Part shown: positions 4,616 to 28,888 of the stretch, one piece after another
How the letters are laid out: each line of letters starts with the position of its first letter
Numbering within the stretch: the first letter of the stretch is position 1
Assembly: GCF_005404945.1 (NCBI RefSeq)
Contig: NZ_BJDG01000003.1
Coordinates: 124,001-188,000, forward strand
Direction of reading: 5' to 3'
Source of the DNA: Lactiplantibacillus pingfangensis
Lineage (GTDB): Bacteria > Bacillota > Bacilli > Lactobacillales > Lactobacillaceae
DNA: 64,000 bases
Notes under the pieces: generated by a model
Told to the model about the DNA's origin: nothing
Database searches by the model: none
What the model saw: only the letters and a program-made list of their open reading frames with translations
Position numbers and translations under genes: made by a program

Positions 4616-5483
4616 CCTTTGGCAACGGCGTCGTCGTAATAGTTTGTGGGTGCTTGTGTTAGTCGCAATCTTTTTAGTGGCGTTGATTTTTCCAGCTTAT
4701 CAATGGACGCAAGCTAACGTTAAGTCGATGGCCGGCCGACATGATTCTAAGTTATCGCCAGTTATTTTGATTCCTGGCAGTAGTGCAACGCAGAACCGGT
4801 TTGATCGCTTAGTCACCCAGTTGAATAAAGCCGATAAACAGCGGCATAGCTTGATCAAGTTAACGGTCAAAACCGATGGCACCATCAAATCTACGGGGAC
4901 TTTACGGCCACGAGATAACGAACCGTTTATCGTCGTCGGCTTTCAGAATAATAAAGATGGTTACGATAATATTCAAAAACAAGCCAAATGGTTCTCATTA
5001 GCTTTTAAACAACTCGCGCGGCGTTATCAATTTAATAATTTTAAGGCAATCGGGCACTCGAACGGTGGCTTGATTTACACGTATTTCTTTGAGCATTACT
5101 TTACGCGCGATGATATTACGGTTAAAAAGTTAATGACAATTGGCTCACCGTATAATTTCTCGGAAGCCAACCTGAGTCACAAGACGCAAATGTTAGCAGA
5201 TTTTATTGATTACCGTGATCGCATTCCAAAGCAATTATCCGTCTATTCGGTTGCCGGAACGGAAAATTATGATTCTGATGGATTAGTGCCCGCGCGAAGT
5301 GTTGAAGCGGGAAAGTACGTCTATCAAGGTCAAGTGAAGCACTATACGGAGGTCACCGTGACCGGCGATAATGCCCAACACTCTGATTTGCCGCAAAATG
5401 AACAAATTGTGAGTCTCATCCAGGAATATATTTTGGATAGTAAGAAAAAGACGCCGACGAAATCACTGATGGGCGCGAACTAG
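4605..5483 (+). CDS. Membrane-anchored alpha/beta hydrolase, DUF915 family, copy 1
   Basis: About 292 aa. An N-terminal signal-anchor (basic start, hydrophobic roughly 15-35) puts the catalytic domain outside the cell. The alpha/beta hydrolase fold shows ILIPGSSATQNRF after the first strand, the nucleophile elbow GHSNGG (Ser), an acidic DSDGLVPARS segment and a terminal His in AQHSDLPQN. These complete a plausible Ser-Asp-His triad. The start overlaps the EIIC stop. ATG 4605 is chosen by analogy with the paralog at 55216; GTG 4602 is the alternative. The substrate is unknown; a lipase- or esterase-like action on envelope components is inference. Confidence 0.8.
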   Translation: MKINLWQRRRRNSLWVLVLVAIFLVALIFPAYQWTQANVKSMAGRHDSKLSPVILIPGSSATQNRFDRLVTQLNKADKQRHSLIKLTVKTDGTIKSTGTLRPRDNEPFIVVGFQNNKDGYDNIQKQAKWFSLAFKQLARRYQFNNFKAIGHSNGGLIYTYFFEHYFTRDDITVKKLMTIGSPYNFSEANLSHKTQMLADFIDYRDRIPKQLSVYSVAGTENYDSDGLVPARSVEAGKYVYQGQVKHYTEVTVTGDNAQHSDLPQNEQIVSLIQEYILDSKKKTPTKSLMGAN

Positions 5484-12055: not shown

Positions 12056-12128
12056 GGCCTCATAGCACAACTGGATAGGGCACCCGCCTCCTAAGCGGTT
12101 GATTCCGGTTCAAGTCCGGATGGGGTCA
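12056..12128 (+). tRNA. tRNA-Arg (anticodon CCT), prophage attachment site
   Basis: 73 nt. Acceptor GGCCTCA pairs with TGGGGTC (including G-T wobbles), discriminator A. The D loop contains CTGGATA. The anticodon loop CTCCTAA at 12088-12094 has CCT at 12090-12092. The T arm is CCGGTTCAAGTCCGG. CCA is not encoded. The last 14 bases are part of the 15-bp core shared with attR, so integration keeps the gene intact. Confidence 0.93.
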
Positions 12129-13604: not shown

Positions 13605-13690
13605 CGCGAGCGGCAGGAGTCGGACCTACATCTGAAAGTATCTAGTTAGCAATTCAAAGGAGTACTGTTCTACCGTTGAACTACGCTCGC
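13605..13690 (-). tRNA. tRNA-like gene A with non-canonical centre (pseudo-tRNA or phage tRNA)
   Basis: On the minus strand the ends form a perfect 7-bp acceptor (GCGAGCG/CGCTCGC), a D arm (GTTC-AACGGTA-GAAC) and a T arm (GTAGG-TCCGACT-CCTGC) with an altered loop. The 37 bases between D and T arms do not make a clean anticodon arm. The best fit (GTACT/ATTGC) has one mismatch and C instead of T at position 33, then about 19 extra bases. The acceptor and D arm are identical to the second copy at 13946-14036. Total length is 86 nt. No amino acid is assigned. Confidence 0.6.
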
Positions 13691-13945: not shown

Positions 13946-14036
13946 TGCGAGCGGCAGGAGTCGAACCTGCATAGTAGTTGTTAAGAGCGGGGACTCTATT
14001 ATTGATGGACATGTTCTACCGTTGAACTACGCTCGC
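13946..14036 (-). tRNA. tRNA-like gene B with enlarged centre
   Basis: 91 nt on the minus strand. Perfect acceptor GCGAGCG/CGCTCGC with discriminator A, D arm GTTC-AACGGTA-GAAC, and a canonical T arm GCAGG-TTCGACT-CCTGC. The 42 bases between GAAC and the T arm contain an AGAG-TCCCCG-CTCT hairpin but no standard 5-bp/7-nt anticodon arm that I can find. The first 26 bases match tRNA-like A. It may be a decaying tRNA, a class II-like phage tRNA, or an RNA-processing signal. Confidence 0.6.
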
Positions 14037-24843: not shown

Positions 24844-25269
24844 TTGAAACGATCGACAATTCGCAAAGTGGAAGACATTTTGCGGGACTATCCAAAGATT
24901 GACAAGTATATCGAAGAACGGGAGCAAGAACTACGTTATCCATCAGGACAAAGCGATGAGAATGTCGGCGGTGGCCGTGCTCAGTACAAGTACAACAATC
25001 AGACGCTTAGCACCCTCATTACGATTGATGAGGACCGGCGAATCAATGCGCTTAGGCGGCAACATGACGTGATTGATGACTGCTTGGACGGTGTGGGTGA
25101 TGATACAGAGGTTATTGTGAATGAGTTGTATTTTAGAAAACGGCAGCAATACACAATTGACGGATTGGTAATGAATCAGTTAATCCATGTAAGTCGCCGG
25201 AAAGCCTTTGATTTAAAGCGATTGTTTCTTGAGGATTGTGCCAAGGGATTCGGACTTTACGAAGTATGA
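24844..25269 (+). CDS. ArpU/RinA-type late transcription regulator
   Basis: 141 aa from TTG 24844 behind TAGGAGGAATG. Length and order (helical start ILRDYPKIDKYIEEREQEL, linker ENVGGGRAQYKYNNQ, C-terminal helix-turn-helix YTIDGLVMNQLIHVSRRKAFDLKR split at about 112-135) match phage regulators that switch on packaging and lysis genes. Its position directly before the terminase block supports this. The controlled promoter is probably between 25270 and 25532. Confidence 0.78.
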   Translation: MKRSTIRKVEDILRDYPKIDKYIEEREQELRYPSGQSDENVGGGRAQYKYNNQTLSTLITIDEDRRINALRRQHDVIDDCLDGVGDDTEVIVNELYFRKRQQYTIDGLVMNQLIHVSRRKAFDLKRLFLEDCAKGFGLYEV

Positions 25270-25379
25270 TAATTTGCACTAACTGTGCACTTTTGACCTA
25301 TAAAAACGTGGTAAATTGGTAGTATGCCAAGTAGGTATGAATAGCATTAATGCCCTCCAAACATTAATTACAGACAGGT

Positions 25380-25439
25380 GTCGCCGTGGGCTAATTGGTA
25401 AGCCACAATGTGATGCGGGTTCGAAACCCGCCGGCGATA
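25380..25439 (+). tRNA. Truncated tRNA-like element lacking a normal anticodon arm
   Basis: 60 nt. The acceptor is GTCGCCG/CGGCGAT with discriminator A. The D arm is GGCT-AATTGGTA-AGCC. The T arm is a perfect GCGGG-TTCGAAA-CCCGC. Only ACAATGTGAT (10 nt) lies between D and T arms, where a tRNA needs about 22. CAC-AAT-GTG could at most form a 3-bp hairpin overlapping the D stem. It cannot decode a codon in the usual way. It lies between the late regulator and the packaging genes. Confidence 0.65.
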
Positions 25440-25532
25440 TTTCATGAAATGTTTTTGAGAGTAATTGCTGGAATTATCAATCGTTAACGCCTATCATTCC
25501 ACTAAGTATAGTAATGAATAGGTGGTGAAATA

Positions 25533-25634
25533 ATGGACGACGAGTTAATTACTGAAGAAACAATTGAAGAACAAAATGCTGAAGAAGGTATTGTTATTGG
25601 AGAAGGCACAATGCGTGACCTCGAAGACTTCTAG
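25533..25634 (+). CDS. 33-aa very acidic peptide
   Basis: ATG 25533 follows AGGTGGTGAAATA. It starts MDDELITEETIEEQNAEEG and ends MRDLEDF; about 13 residues are Asp/Glu and only one is basic. A strong terminator follows 13 bases later. No family was recognised. Such small acidic proteins can mimic DNA or bind regulators (inference). Confidence 0.5.
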   Translation: MDDELITEETIEEQNAEEGIVIGEGTMRDLEDF

Positions 25635-25646
25635 ATTGAATATTAT

Positions 25647-25680
25647 ACAAAAACTCTCGCTTAATGGCGGGAGTTTTTGT
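25647..25680 (+). terminator. Strong terminator before accessory locus
   Basis: ACAAAAACTCTCGC (25647-25660) pairs with GCGGGAGTTTTTGT (25667-25680), 14 bp with one wobble. The A and T flanks could act in both directions. Confidence 0.85.
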
Positions 25681-25725
25681 ATAATTAATTTAGTTAAAAA
25701 TCTAATTAATAGGGAGACTTAAGGT

Positions 25726-26160
25726 ATGACTACATCGAAATTATCTGCTCAGATTGTTGTTTCTGAAAACATTGACCGTGTAAATAACCCTAACGGATTA
25801 GGTGATACAGTGAGATTAGTAAATCCTACTTTGACACTTGGAATGCCCATTGTACCCACTGCACTTTCTTTTTCGATATCTGTTCTAACTGATGGTTTGA
25901 GTTTTGACACCGATCATCATATTAAATTGGCGATTGAAGATGAAAGTAACAACGAGATTAGTAAGGTTGAGGGTGACGTTAAATCGTTTGCTGCGCCCCA
26001 TATGGGTGGCTTCAACATCAACTTTGATTTCAGAAATGTAGTCTTTCAAAAATCAGGAAGATACACTGCAATATTTAGCATAGATGGTGATCCTGTTCAA
26101 AGCCAAAAGTTTAGAACCTTTTCAGATAAAAATGAAGCAACTGTAAATAGAGTCGATTAA
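25726..26160 (+). CDS. Beta-sandwich accessory protein (DUF6941-like)
   Basis: A 144-aa protein of alternating beta strands with the order TALSFSISVLTDGLSF, HIKLAIEDESNNEISK, FNINFDFRNVVFQKSGRYTAIFSIDGDPV. This resembles Ig-like DUF6941 proteins found in accessory loci, recognised by pattern only. It is AT-rich, bracketed by terminators and not part of the usual phage gene order, so it looks like a cargo (moron) gene. The next gene follows after 4 bases, so the two act together (inference). Confidence 0.6.
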   Translation: MTTSKLSAQIVVSENIDRVNNPNGLGDTVRLVNPTLTLGMPIVPTALSFSISVLTDGLSFDTDHHIKLAIEDESNNEISKVEGDVKSFAAPHMGGFNINFDFRNVVFQKSGRYTAIFSIDGDPVQSQKFRTFSDKNEATVNRVD

Positions 26161-26164
26161 ACTC

Positions 26165-26743
26165 ATGGAGCCTACTAATAATATATTTCTTGACGCAGAT
26201 CCAGATTTCAATGAAGAAAACGTGCCTTTTAACGATAAAAGAAGGCTTTTGACTGCTGTTTTTGGAGCTTTTGTGGTAGCATCATCTATAAATAGTAGTC
26301 CAATTAATATACAAACTGTTAATCCCAATATTAAAAGTTCAAGTGTCAAAATTGAGAATCGTGGAACTCATGATACTTTAAATTACCAATTGGATGGAGG
26401 GTCTATTATGTCTGAAAATAATGGTTTTTTAAACGGAAGAGACTATGAATCCCTCAATAAGCTTATTGATAAGCAAAATCAACACCTTGAGCAACAAATT
26501 GCTATGACTAAAGAAATCATTGATACCCAAGAAAAAAATCAAAAAGAGAATATGGAACGTATTGAAACAACTATAAAAGAATTGAATAAAAAAATTGATG
26601 GTTTGCCAAGTCAAGAAGAAACGGTTAACAAAATTAGAGATGAAATAAGAGCTGACCACAGGCAGTGGAAGACTTGGGCAATAGCAATTGGTGCTATTGT
26701 GATTCCAAGCGTGGTACAAGTCGTTTTACATTTTTTGAATTAG
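26165..26743 (+). CDS. Two-span membrane protein with coiled coil (accessory locus)
   Basis: A 192-aa protein. A moderately hydrophobic segment (LLTAVFGAFVVASSINSS, about 28-45) precedes a linker. A long coiled coil (about 98-160, with MERIETTIKELNKKIDGL) leads to a C-terminal transmembrane helix (TWAIAIGAIVIPSVVQVVL). The ribosome site is weak, which suggests coupling to the gene before it. AT-rich composition and its own terminator mark it as cargo, perhaps for superinfection exclusion or abortive infection (inference). Confidence 0.62.
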   Translation: MEPTNNIFLDADPDFNEENVPFNDKRRLLTAVFGAFVVASSINSSPINIQTVNPNIKSSSVKIENRGTHDTLNYQLDGGSIMSENNGFLNGRDYESLNKLIDKQNQHLEQQIAMTKEIIDTQEKNQKENMERIETTIKELNKKIDGLPSQEETVNKIRDEIRADHRQWKTWAIAIGAIVIPSVVQVVLHFLN

Positions 26744-26814: not shown

Positions 26815-27588
26815 ATGGATAAACGAGAACAGGCTGGTCAGGATTACGCGGCTGGAATGAAGTACAAAGACATCTCAGCCAAATACGACGTACCGGTCAA
26901 CACCTTAAAATCTTGGCGCACTCGCGACCATTGGAAACGGGGTGCACCCGCAACCAAAGAGGTGCACCCAAAACGAAAAAGAAATGCACCCAAAGTTGCA
27001 CCCAAAATAGTAGATGAATTAGAGGCAAACGACAAACTTACAGATAAGCAAAAATCGTTCTGTCTCTTTTATTTACAACGATTTAACGCAACGTGGGCGT
27101 ACCAGAAAGCTTATCAGTGTAGCTATGAGACAGCAATGTCAGAGGGTAGTAAGTGCCTAAGAAATCCCAAGGTCAAAGCGCAGCTTATCGAGCTTAAAAA
27201 GCAACAGCGTACTGATCTTTTTGTGACCGCTGAGGACGTCGCAAGGCAATATGCCAAACAGGCTTTTGCTGATTTGGGCGACTACATCGATTTTGGAACT
27301 AGCGAAGAAATAGTACGTGATGGCTGGCATAAGCCTGTTAAAGATAAGATAACCGGAGATTATCTGAAAAGAAAGGTATCGTTTGTACAGCTCAAAGACA
27401 TTGATGATGTTGACACATCACTCTTAAAAGGCGTTCACATCGGCAAAGAGGGTGTTGTGGTCGAGCTTTACGACAAGCAGAAAGCGATGGCCGAGCTAAG
27501 GAGATACCTAAGTGAAAACAAATCTAGTGGCGATAATTTCACAATAAACTTTATACGAAGTGACCGGAGGGACAAGGATGGAGATTAA
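26815..27588 (+). CDS. terS: Terminase small subunit
   Basis: A 257-aa protein. The N-terminal helix-turn-helix (YAAGMKYKDISAKYDVPVNTLKSWR, about 10-35) is the DNA-recognition domain of phage small terminases. The central KQKSFCLFYLQRFNATWAYQKAYQCS is the terminase_2 domain signature. It would bind viral DNA at the packaging start and activate the large subunit, whose start it overlaps. Four TGCACCC repeats lie within the gene at 26943-27003. Confidence 0.9.
   Translation: MDKREQAGQDYAAGMKYKDISAKYDVPVNTLKSWRTRDHWKRGAPATKEVHPKRKRNAPKVAPKIVDELEANDKLTDKQKSFCLFYLQRFNATWAYQKAYQCSYETAMSEGSKCLRNPKVKAQLIELKKQQRTDLFVTAEDVARQYAKQAFADLGDYIDFGTSEEIVRDGWHKPVKDKITGDYLKRKVSFVQLKDIDDVDTSLLKGVHIGKEGVVVELYDKQKAMAELRRYLSENKSSGDNFTINFIRSDRRDKDGD
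26943..27003 (+). repeat. TGCACCC repeats inside terS (candidate packaging site)
   Basis: TGCACCC occurs at 26943, 26963, 26985 and 26997; the last three continue as AAA. Headful phages such as SPP1 and P22 place pac sequences in or next to the small-terminase gene. Assignment is inference; the repeat also encodes a HPK/APK-type protein repeat. Confidence 0.4.
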
Positions 27589-28888
27589 CGTGGATGTTGA
27601 TGCTATGATTAATCCTCATTTTGACGATGTTTTATACTCAAACGCGCTTAACAAGGTATTAAAGGGTGGACGTGGATCAACCAAGTCATCAGTCATCAGC
27701 TTACAGCTAGTGTTGGACTTTATAGGAGACCCAAACGGCAATGCTTTAATCATGCGTAAGGTTGCGAATACTATCGAACTTTCGATTTATGAGCAGATAA
27801 AGTGGGCAATTTACGAATTACATGTCCAAGACCTATTCACTTTTAAAACATCACCTTACCGGATCACACATGTTCCAACAGGTACTGCATTTTACTTTAG
27901 TGGCGTTGATGACCCTCAAAAGCTAAAATCAATGATTATCGCAAAAGGTTATGTCCGCTGGTTGTGGTTCGAAGAACTGGCTGAGTTTAATAGCTGGGCC
28001 GAGGTTGATGCTGTGCGTGCTTCGTTTACACGTAAGAAATTGCCAACCGGACTGCATGTTATTACCTATTACAGTTACAATCCTCCTAAAAATCCTTATG
28101 AATGGATTAATGAATGGGTTGAAGGCCGTGCAGGTTTGCATAATTGGTACGTTGATCACTCGACTTATCTTGATGACAAGTTAAATCTGCTCTCGAATGA
28201 CTATATTGCAGAAATAAATCAAGTTAAAAATAATGACTATGACTATTACCGGTGGATGTACGGTGGCGAGGTGATAGGACTTGGCACCAACATTTATAAT
28301 GCAAAGCTGTTTCACCCAATAGTTGCATTCCCAGATGACGATTACATCAAGTCACTATATTTTAGTCAAGATACTGGTCAGCAAGTGTCTGCGACGACTG
28401 AGCTGTGCATTGCATTGACTGCTAAGAAGCGAGTTATTTTGCTAGATACTTATTACTATAGCCCTGCACATCAATCGGTTAAGAAGCCGCCTAGTGAGCT
28501 TGCAGACGATTTGTATAAGTTTGAAGAAAGCCGTGAAGCCCAATGGAACAAGGTGGCTTGGAAACGCTCGGCCGATGAAGCGACTTCTGATTACGCCATT
28601 GACCATGAATATTTCAAAAAGTATGGTCGGCATTGGCACCACGTTCATAAAGTTGAAAAAACGAAGATGATTGACCACGTCCAGGACTTACTAGCCACTG
28701 GACGTTTTTATTACCTCGATAACGAGGCCAACAAAATATTTATTGATGAGCATCGTAAGTATCAGTGGGATGGAAACACGCTTGAAACCGATAAGCCAAA
28801 GGTCATCAAAATTGATGATCATACTTGCGACGCGTTTCAATATTTTGTCTTGGACAACTTAGCTGACCTCGATTTGAAATGGAGGTGA
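27578..28888 (+). CDS. terL: Terminase large subunit (PBSX type)
   Basis: 436 aa from ATG 27578 behind CCGGAGGG. The ATPase domain has the Walker A-like KGGRGSTKSS (about residue 31) and Walker B WLWFEELAEF. TYYSYNPPKNPYEWINEW is typical of PBSX-family large terminases. The C-terminal nuclease half holds acidic residues in LYFSQDTGQ, KKRVILLDTYYY and DEATSDYAI. It drives ATP-powered DNA packaging and cuts the concatemer. Confidence 0.92.
   Translation: MEINVDVDAMINPHFDDVLYSNALNKVLKGGRGSTKSSVISLQLVLDFIGDPNGNALIMRKVANTIELSIYEQIKWAIYELHVQDLFTFKTSPYRITHVPTGTAFYFSGVDDPQKLKSMIIAKGYVRWLWFEELAEFNSWAEVDAVRASFTRKKLPTGLHVITYYSYNPPKNPYEWINEWVEGRAGLHNWYVDHSTYLDDKLNLLSNDYIAEINQVKNNDYDYYRWMYGGEVIGLGTNIYNAKLFHPIVAFPDDDYIKSLYFSQDTGQQVSATTELCIALTAKKRVILLDTYYYSPAHQSVKKPPSELADDLYKFEESREAQWNKVAWKRSADEATSDYAIDHEYFKKYGRHWHHVHKVEKTKMIDHVQDLLATGRFYYLDNEANKIFIDEHRKYQWDGNTLETDKPKVIKIDDHTCDAFQYFVLDNLADLDLKWR

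Follow-up and report, generated by a model that had tools for sequence, protein, structure and literature searches.

The window, a 64,000-nt stretch of the Lactiplantibacillus pingfangensis genome, encodes on its forward strand a 60-nt tRNA-like element without an anticodon arm (25380–25439). It belongs to a conserved family whose stems covary across types that are unrelated in sequence. These observations support the view, drawn from sequence comparison, that the element is a conserved tRNA mimic, neither a chance fold nor a decayed tRNA. We give about an even chance to the proposal that such anticodon-free mimics are "cut-here" tags read by the RNase P and RNase Z of the host.

Anatomy of the element

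The acceptor stem (25380–25386 with 25432–25438) has seven pairs, the first of them G-U. Two bases separate it from the D stem (25389–25392 with 25401–25404), which closes an 8-nt loop containing GG. A 10-nt linker (25405–25414) replaces the anticodon arm and joins the D arm to the T arm, whose stem (25415–25419 with 25427–25431) carries the loop TTCGAAA. The discriminator, A73, is position 25439, and no CCA is encoded after it. A sequence-only reading of this DNA had described intact acceptor, D and T arms with 10 bases between the last two, stems that are perfect or wobble-paired, and an inability to decode in the usual way. The sequence and the Rfam score of 45.8 bits bear out the first point, and the seven-pair acceptor with its G-U and the wholly absent anticodon arm agree with the others.

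That score was obtained with the Rfam tRNA model in a scan of a 501-base stretch (gathering score 29, E = 1.1e-8), and most of the anticodon arm is deleted in the alignment. A whole-genome tRNA search also recovers the element. The first cmscan of the whole window, run with Rfam's fast filters, missed it, and ARAGORN called no tRNA at this position or in five related loci that bear the element. Given that ARAGORN is blind to the element in all six sources checked, a widespread class of phage RNA may have gone unlisted so far. The folding energy corresponds to z = −2.9, and the minimum-energy fold consists of the three stems at their expected places and a few extra pairs.

Compared with canonical tRNA (RF00005), the element has the acceptor, D and T stems, the T-loop motif, T8, A14, the G18G19 pair and the core pair 15–48, which is A-U in all 71 distinct elements of the window's type (type 1), and it scores above the gathering threshold. 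Unlike canonical tRNA, it has the 10-nt linker in place of an anticodon arm with a 7-nt loop, cannot decode and leaves ARAGORN silent. Two other identities were rejected on score: YrlA (RF02553; 16.6 bits against a gathering score of 69) and permuted tmRNA (12.3 bits against a cut-off of 47).

Genomic setting

Upstream of the element lies a late-type transcriptional regulator of 141 aa, RinA/ArpU-like (24844–25269, forward strand; phrog_36, E = 6e-18). An alignment of 21 loci shows a recurrent layout between regulator and element: a direct repeat, then TTTTGAC or a near match, then TGn-TAAATT or a near match. The two halves of the repeat change together from phage to phage, and the layout is common in outline to type 1 loci and to those of the second type described below. 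The window's version is a putative activator-dependent promoter (25274–25317, forward strand), in which a GCAC direct repeat with an 11-nt period is followed by TGG-TAAATT, with the extended −10 at 25309–25317; the list from a sigma-70 scan of the window did not include it. We infer from this arrangement of motifs that the layout would be the regulator's own late promoter. A short conserved leader (CCTCCAAA...ACAGAC.GGT; 25354–25379, forward strand) follows, partly kept in phage JL-1 and in a same-genus genome (L267).

Directly behind the discriminator is a U (25440), at the expected RNase Z cleavage site. Further along the same strand are a possible, putative 33-aa ORF (25533–25634), which has no Pfam match and is the same in L267, and a terminator-like hairpin with a 20-bp stem that closes the cassette (25642–25685). 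The hairpin core recurs in related contexts: a core within two substitutions of CTCTCGCTTATTGGCGGGAG is present within 1.6 kb in 41 of 67 such contexts, and a terminator-like hairpin precedes the first ORF of at least 90 aa in 53 of the 67. It is therefore more apt to regard the unit that holds the element as a separate cassette than as a late mRNA leader. Two ORFs (25726–26743) and the hairpin separate the element from terS, and the terminases (26815–28888) match Pfam Terminase_2 and Terminase_3. The earlier placement of the element between late regulator and terminases is thus correct, while the description of that spot as the place where late transcription begins holds only in part, because the two ORFs and the hairpin come before terS.

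Of the two cargo genes at 25726–26743, one matches DUF6941 and the other has only weak matches. The DNA of this interval had no match in the phage collection, but the ORF starts are the same in L267. An identical element stands in that genome, with the same cargo over the part inspected, but the regulator region upstream differs; the switch to the differing sequence falls about 26 nt before the element.

A tRNA-Arg(CCT) gene at 12056–12128 adjoins the integrase and is likely the prophage attachment site. The idea that 25380–25439 is itself a fragment of an integration-site tRNA was rejected: both halves are present, the element lies between regulator and terminase, and the tRNA-Arg beside the integrase is the likelier attachment site.

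Conservation in loci fetched by the regulator

In BLAST searches against phages, JL-1 matches the 60-nt stretch 25381–25440 at 86.7% identity, and Sha1 and zrk29-2 match the element together with the upstream leader. A loose first regular expression returned mostly noise and was replaced by pairing-based finders. To have loci that were not chosen by the element, the regulator protein was used as the query against viral contigs, which gave 102 encoded relatives, of which 80 were kept. An armless element is present in 76 of these 80 RinA-like loci, +74 to +113 nt after the regulator stop. A length of 60 nt is shared by 68 of the elements, in 38 distinct sequences; of the rest, one has 61 nt and seven belong to a second type (type 2), unrelated in sequence and 58–61 nt long. 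Within type 1 the D arm is the least variable part and is nearly invariant in the 38 distinct 60-nt sequences; between-part entropy comparisons use this regulator-fetched set. Among the four loci that lack the element by the definition used here, one (L049) has it cut off after the first 10 bases, and three (L006, L008, L010) have a different tRNA-like RNA of 72–73 nt further down. Two more loci (L007, L009) have elements with mismatched acceptors.

The 72–73-nt RNA occurs at 4787–4859 of L006 and also in L008, L009 and L010. Judged by eye, the L006 copy has a loop that would present UUA as the anticodon and so pair with the stop codon UAA.

A further 84 loci were fetched with ArpU-like proteins alone, and the finder was applied to the interval that starts 300 nt ahead of the regulator end and extends 1.5 kb beyond it. 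It found an armless element in 54 of the 84, a count that includes a weak 57-nt candidate in L287 (score 32). The same finder made 0 matches elsewhere in those loci (1,049,580 nt, both strands) and 1 match in 1.42 Mb of mononucleotide-shuffled sequence. Nineteen of the 30 loci without an armless element, again by our definition, were scanned with Rfam. Four (L270, L272, L277, L284) have a 67-nt type 2 homologue with a 3-bp mini-arm, ten have other tRNA matches of 71–73 nt, and five (L286, L302, L338, L349, L351) gave no match in that scan; L302, which ends 51 nt past the regulator and is uninformative, is nevertheless counted among the 30. The 67-nt homologue of the 58-nt type 2 element, with its 3-bp mini-arm, is seen at L270 4049–4115 and in similar loci, and L269 and L274 each hold both forms.

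Structure kept without sequence

A covariance model of type 1, searched against 201 genomes of the window's family, found further short elements that are unrelated in sequence. The model also matches class II tRNAs in other genera, so that nearly only matches of 47–67 nt were followed. Matches of 47 nt in L263 and L264 were set aside, as the sequence just upstream of them resembles a class II tRNA 5′ half. At six loci (L256, L258, L259, L260, L261, L262) the regulator, marked by a shared SP....MP motif, lies upstream of the element, and in most of them the ORF after the element was taken by eye as a terminase small subunit. The L258 element, 67 nt long with a possible mini-arm, is not strictly armless. 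L257 has its element in a different setting; in L265, where no regulator ORF was seen, the element is related to type 1. A generic armless covariance model proved useless as a screen: it matched 294 of 295 genomes, and among the rows listed only the window's element and one 67-nt match depart from ordinary tRNA lengths.

Across an alignment of 17 elements, 98.9% of cells are paired and 76 cells are changed on both sides, against 21.7 in shuffles, a count that leans towards structure as the alignment was fitted to the model. Covariation of the stems in relatives is what the sequence-only reading had proposed to look for, and it had named the lack of a conserved fold, or a recent deletion within a normal tRNA, as what would speak against it. 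Conservation and covariation contradict both and support its core claim of a conserved tRNA mimic.

A second family in the same window

On the reverse strand, the window holds two tRNA-like elements of a second family. In one (13946–14036; Rfam tRNA 48.2 bits) a 42-nt insert replaces the anticodon arm, and the other (13605–13690; 42.6 bits) is a second copy of the scaffold with a different insert of 37 nt. Both exceed the Rfam tRNA gathering score, and they share the scaffold halves and differ in the insert. Among the matches listed, the family comprises 163 unique contexts and 66 distinct inserts of 34–50 nt in 15 clusters. By the criterion used here, none of the 66 inserts forms a standard anticodon arm. 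The discriminator is followed by T in 163 of 163 listed contexts. These contexts, most of them from viral contigs, were found by the 5′ half of the scaffold, and only the constancy of the 3′ half is unbiased.

Second-family elements sit between small lysogeny genes, with up to three copies per locus. Downstream, 149 of 160 cases have the start of an ORF preceded by a Shine-Dalgarno sequence within 400 nt (median 51 nt); upstream, 146 of 160 have the end of an ORF within the same distance (median 42 nt). The link that had been drawn between these twins and the element at 25380–25439 is well founded in their common anatomy: acceptor, D and T arms are kept and the anticodon arm is not.

A wider set in IMG/VR

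At least 120 stretches in IMG/VR match a pattern of the common D arm followed within 5–14 nt by the start of a T arm, a pattern that leaves the acceptor and the pair 15–48 free. All figures in this section are for the matches listed. We read 80 matches, in 80 loci, which yield 61 distinct elements of 55–61 nt; 11 are of type 2, and 50 fall outside the earlier types. At least six of the seven acceptor pairs form in 53 of the 61 elements (42 of the 50), and the eight of the 61 that pair poorly may be something else. Counted by distinct acceptors, 40 of 47 pair at 6 or 7 positions, against 3.3% for mismatched halves. The core pair 15–48 is G-C in 21 of 40, A-U in 16 and something else in 3. A hairpin of at least 3 bp is possible in 3 of 48 distinct linkers. 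CCA is encoded after five of the 50 (5 of the 80 matches), and 24 of the 80 loci have an ordinary tRNA on the same strand no more than 1 kb away. As the loci collected by D arm, scaffold or pattern were picked by sequence, their counts are not frequencies.

Neighbours were looked up for 14 of these loci (20 proteins). Two (L501, L542) have a terminase small subunit within 90 nt downstream, and a third (L535) has a terminase large subunit about 1.5 kb downstream, beyond an endolysin-like protein. The L505 neighbours are DNA-binding and HNH proteins, one of them with a weaker terminase-family match as well. Elsewhere the element is near tail proteins (L486, L537), a DNA polymerase (L475), an endonuclease VII match (L478) or a lipase-like protein (L511). 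For the neighbours in L477 and L517 the only matches are to families of unknown function; for those in L521, L525 and L550 the look-up gave no match.

The 3′ boundary and the cargo

In 85 contexts that share the leader, information stands at about 1.7–1.9 bits per base inside the element and 1.91 at the U, then falls to 0.88, 0.60 and about 0.2–0.3. Because some of the 85 were selected through their D arm, the values within the element are inflated, but the drop is not. The 5′ side has no such sharp edge, and the leader remains at 1.2–1.6 bits. Behind the boundary, the 85 contexts have 30 unrelated downstream clusters (49 with all types pooled), and the cargo in the window's relatives includes ROOL RNA, tRNA-like RNAs, terminators and genes. 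Among the matches listed, 126 of the 127 type 1 contexts and all 7 of type 2 have T after A73, and CCA is encoded in none of these 134. Once type 2 is set aside, the 42 well-paired elements of the wider IMG/VR set have C after position 73 in 29 cases and T in 7. The U at +1 is therefore a mark of the window's relatives and not of the whole class.

ROOL was sought in 35 hand-picked records, partly chosen for long intervals behind the element. It lies directly 3′ of the element in five (L022, L026, L047, L073, L079), where the ROOL model starts 13 nt inside the element and the ROOL body begins at the predicted cut; the five look closely related and amount to about one case. In L047, L022 and L016, the last sharing the flanks of the other two and standing outside the ROOL search, a closing helix starts 2 nt after the element and a tRNA-like RNA lies 4 nt past the helix end. 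A closing helix behind the element is not general: one of at least 7 bp occurs in 14 of 49 cargos, while shuffled sequence gives 13% and internal control positions give 8–14 of 49. An earlier matched-ends test of the cargos lost its value because the second tRNA-like RNA was poorly recognised.

The 201 whole genomes contain four ROOL loci. In one (L355), a 49-nt stretch 12 nt before the model start has, by eye, an acceptor, a short D arm and a T arm without an anticodon arm; the finder did not call it. A tRNA-Lys follows 5 nt after the model end. The other three loci have no convincing tRNA-like RNA flanking on the same strand, where the finder made two matches of the lowest score. No gathering-level ROOL match occurs in the window or in its genome, so that ROOL is a cargo in relatives only.

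What the element may do

RNase P binds the stack of T arm and acceptor and measures from the elbow, according to an extract of PMC4919913. The enzyme thus reads parts that do not include the anticodon arm, and the element keeps just these; a processing tag is therefore the simplest account. On this account the element would be a dedicated tRNA mimic that retains the acceptor stem, D/T elbow and T loop read by end-processing enzymes and has dropped the part read by the ribosome. It would be transcribed within the leader of a short RNA cassette that the late regulator is expected to activate. Cleavage of the element by host RNase P at the 5′ end and by RNase Z behind A73 would then release the downstream RNA with a fixed start; in relatives, what follows is ROOL, tRNA-like RNAs, hairpins or small genes. 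The twins would do likewise between the small genes of the lysogeny operon. Beyond the observed anatomy, conservation, covariation, position and 3′ boundary, we infer transcription, cleavage by the two enzymes and a benefit to the phage. Of the three functions first offered for the element, a processing signal fits best, although for the adjoining RNA or gene cassette, with a hairpin before the ORF in 53 of 67 contexts, rather than for late mRNA as such.

The 3′ end agrees with this account. RNase Z cuts after the discriminator of tRNAs that lack CCA, including a streptococcal case with U as the first trailer base (extract of PMC8549757), and the cut predicted for a CCA-less tRNA coincides with the sharp 3′ edge of the element. 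Several observations count against a processing tag. Some cassettes leave little to release (L038, L062, L056, with a terminator-like hairpin starting 17, 30 or 50 nt after the element), the type 1 D arm varies less than shape alone would need, C follows position 73 in most of the wider set, three of the four whole-genome ROOL loci are without a convincing flanking tRNA-like RNA, the closing helix is not general, and 4 of 80 and 30 of 84 regulator loci have no element by our definition.

The sparse cassettes, the nearly invariant D arm and the C after position 73 leave room for a different role, in which the mature armless RNA is itself the product. It would act in trans by occupying a host tRNA-binding protein such as the CCA-adding enzyme, RNase P or a defence nuclease directed at anticodon loops, perhaps once CCA has been added; the minihelix substrate suggested earlier, or another trans-acting role, may belong here. 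We consider this unlikely, though it is the alternative that survives best. It is favoured by the L038, L056 and L062 cassettes, which hold little beyond leader, element and terminator, by the D arm, nearly invariant also in the 38 distinct regulator-fetched sequences, and by the CCA encoded after 5 of the 80 wider matches. However, the sequence is replaced wholesale between types at the same place, which fits recognition of shape better than one specific partner, and the second family carries unrelated inserts. We know of no target for such a mimic.

It is improbable that the element is mainly a recombination junction for exchange of regulator and cargo modules, with the tRNA shape an ancestral leftover. 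One element does occur with different upstream modules (the RinA leader, the ArpU context, JL-1, L267) and many cargos, and the twin scaffolds flank exchangeable small genes. Yet a homology tag needs no pairing, and the stems and the 15–48 pair persist while the sequence changes.

A decayed or recently deleted tRNA without function is highly improbable: a few relatives have lost or damaged the element (L006, L008, L010 and L049; mismatched acceptors in L007 and L009), and the 67-nt type 2 homologue with its mini-arm suggests that gradual arm loss is possible, but the 55–61-nt form is conserved across many phages with compensatory changes. The earlier suggestion of a structure for DNA packaging, or related to cos, has been weakened to a very slight chance: the element precedes terminase genes in many of the phages looked at and lies about 160 nt from the end of the record in JL-1, but the terminases differ in type (P27-type in Sha1, L004 and L005, Terminase_2 in the window), elsewhere the neighbours are tail or polymerase genes, the T-loop and core features are those of a tRNA, and the sister family sits in the lysogeny module.

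The processing account can be widened to phages of many hosts. Their portable anticodon-free tags would be recognised, through tRNA elbow and acceptor, by the RNase P and RNase Z of the host, which would cut phage transcripts into RNAs and mRNAs of defined extent and, in some phages, set free the cage-forming ROOL RNA. We hold this version only tentatively, as rather more doubtful than even; that the U is not the rule in the wider set lowered its probability.

Relation to known systems

tRNA punctuation, in which tRNAs between genes are excised by RNase P and RNase Z, is best known in mitochondria. The phage elements resemble it in that tRNA-shaped elements, the twins especially, lie between adjacent genes or RNAs (149/160 and 146/160 for the second family, and the ROOL cases), and the U at +1 and the missing CCA are consistent with the predicted end cleavage. 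Unlike punctuation tRNAs, the spacers here are non-decoding, anticodon-free mimics in phages, and their cleavage is putative. The tRNA-like module of YrlA, a bacterial Y RNA, likewise mimics tRNA through T-loop and D-loop modules. The MALAT1 mascRNA and the tRNA-like structures of plant viruses are tRNA-shaped RNAs that serve as processing signals or 3′-end mimics, as is proposed here; those are eukaryotic or RNA-virus systems, and the likeness is one of shape. The minimal mitochondrial tRNAs of mites and nematodes also lack an arm, in the extract of PMC2797822 the D or the T arm, whereas the phage element lacks the anticodon arm. ROOL (RF03087) is one cargo of the element. Its occurrence near phage tRNA islands is published and its function described as unknown (PMC12286853), and the extract of that paper does not mention an anticodon-free tRNA at the 5′ edge of ROOL.

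A search of the open-access literature by title and abstract, a scope outside which most subscription papers and preprints fall, returned no description of phage tRNAs without an anticodon arm. We would place the element among tRNA-like processing elements, in an anticodon-free form that appears not to have been described for phages in that literature. If the processing account is right, phages define RNA ends with a tRNA-shaped tag stripped of its decoding part, ROOL RNA gains a concrete route of biogenesis, and bacterial genetics gains a compact RNA-processing tag. Should the RNA instead act in trans, it would be a tRNA decoy that anticodon-cutting enzymes could not cut.

One record stands apart by its label. 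L003 (OP650937.1), labelled Hujiaoplasma phage zrk29-2, has the same element, leader and twin scaffold as Lactobacillus phages, and its host label may be wrong.
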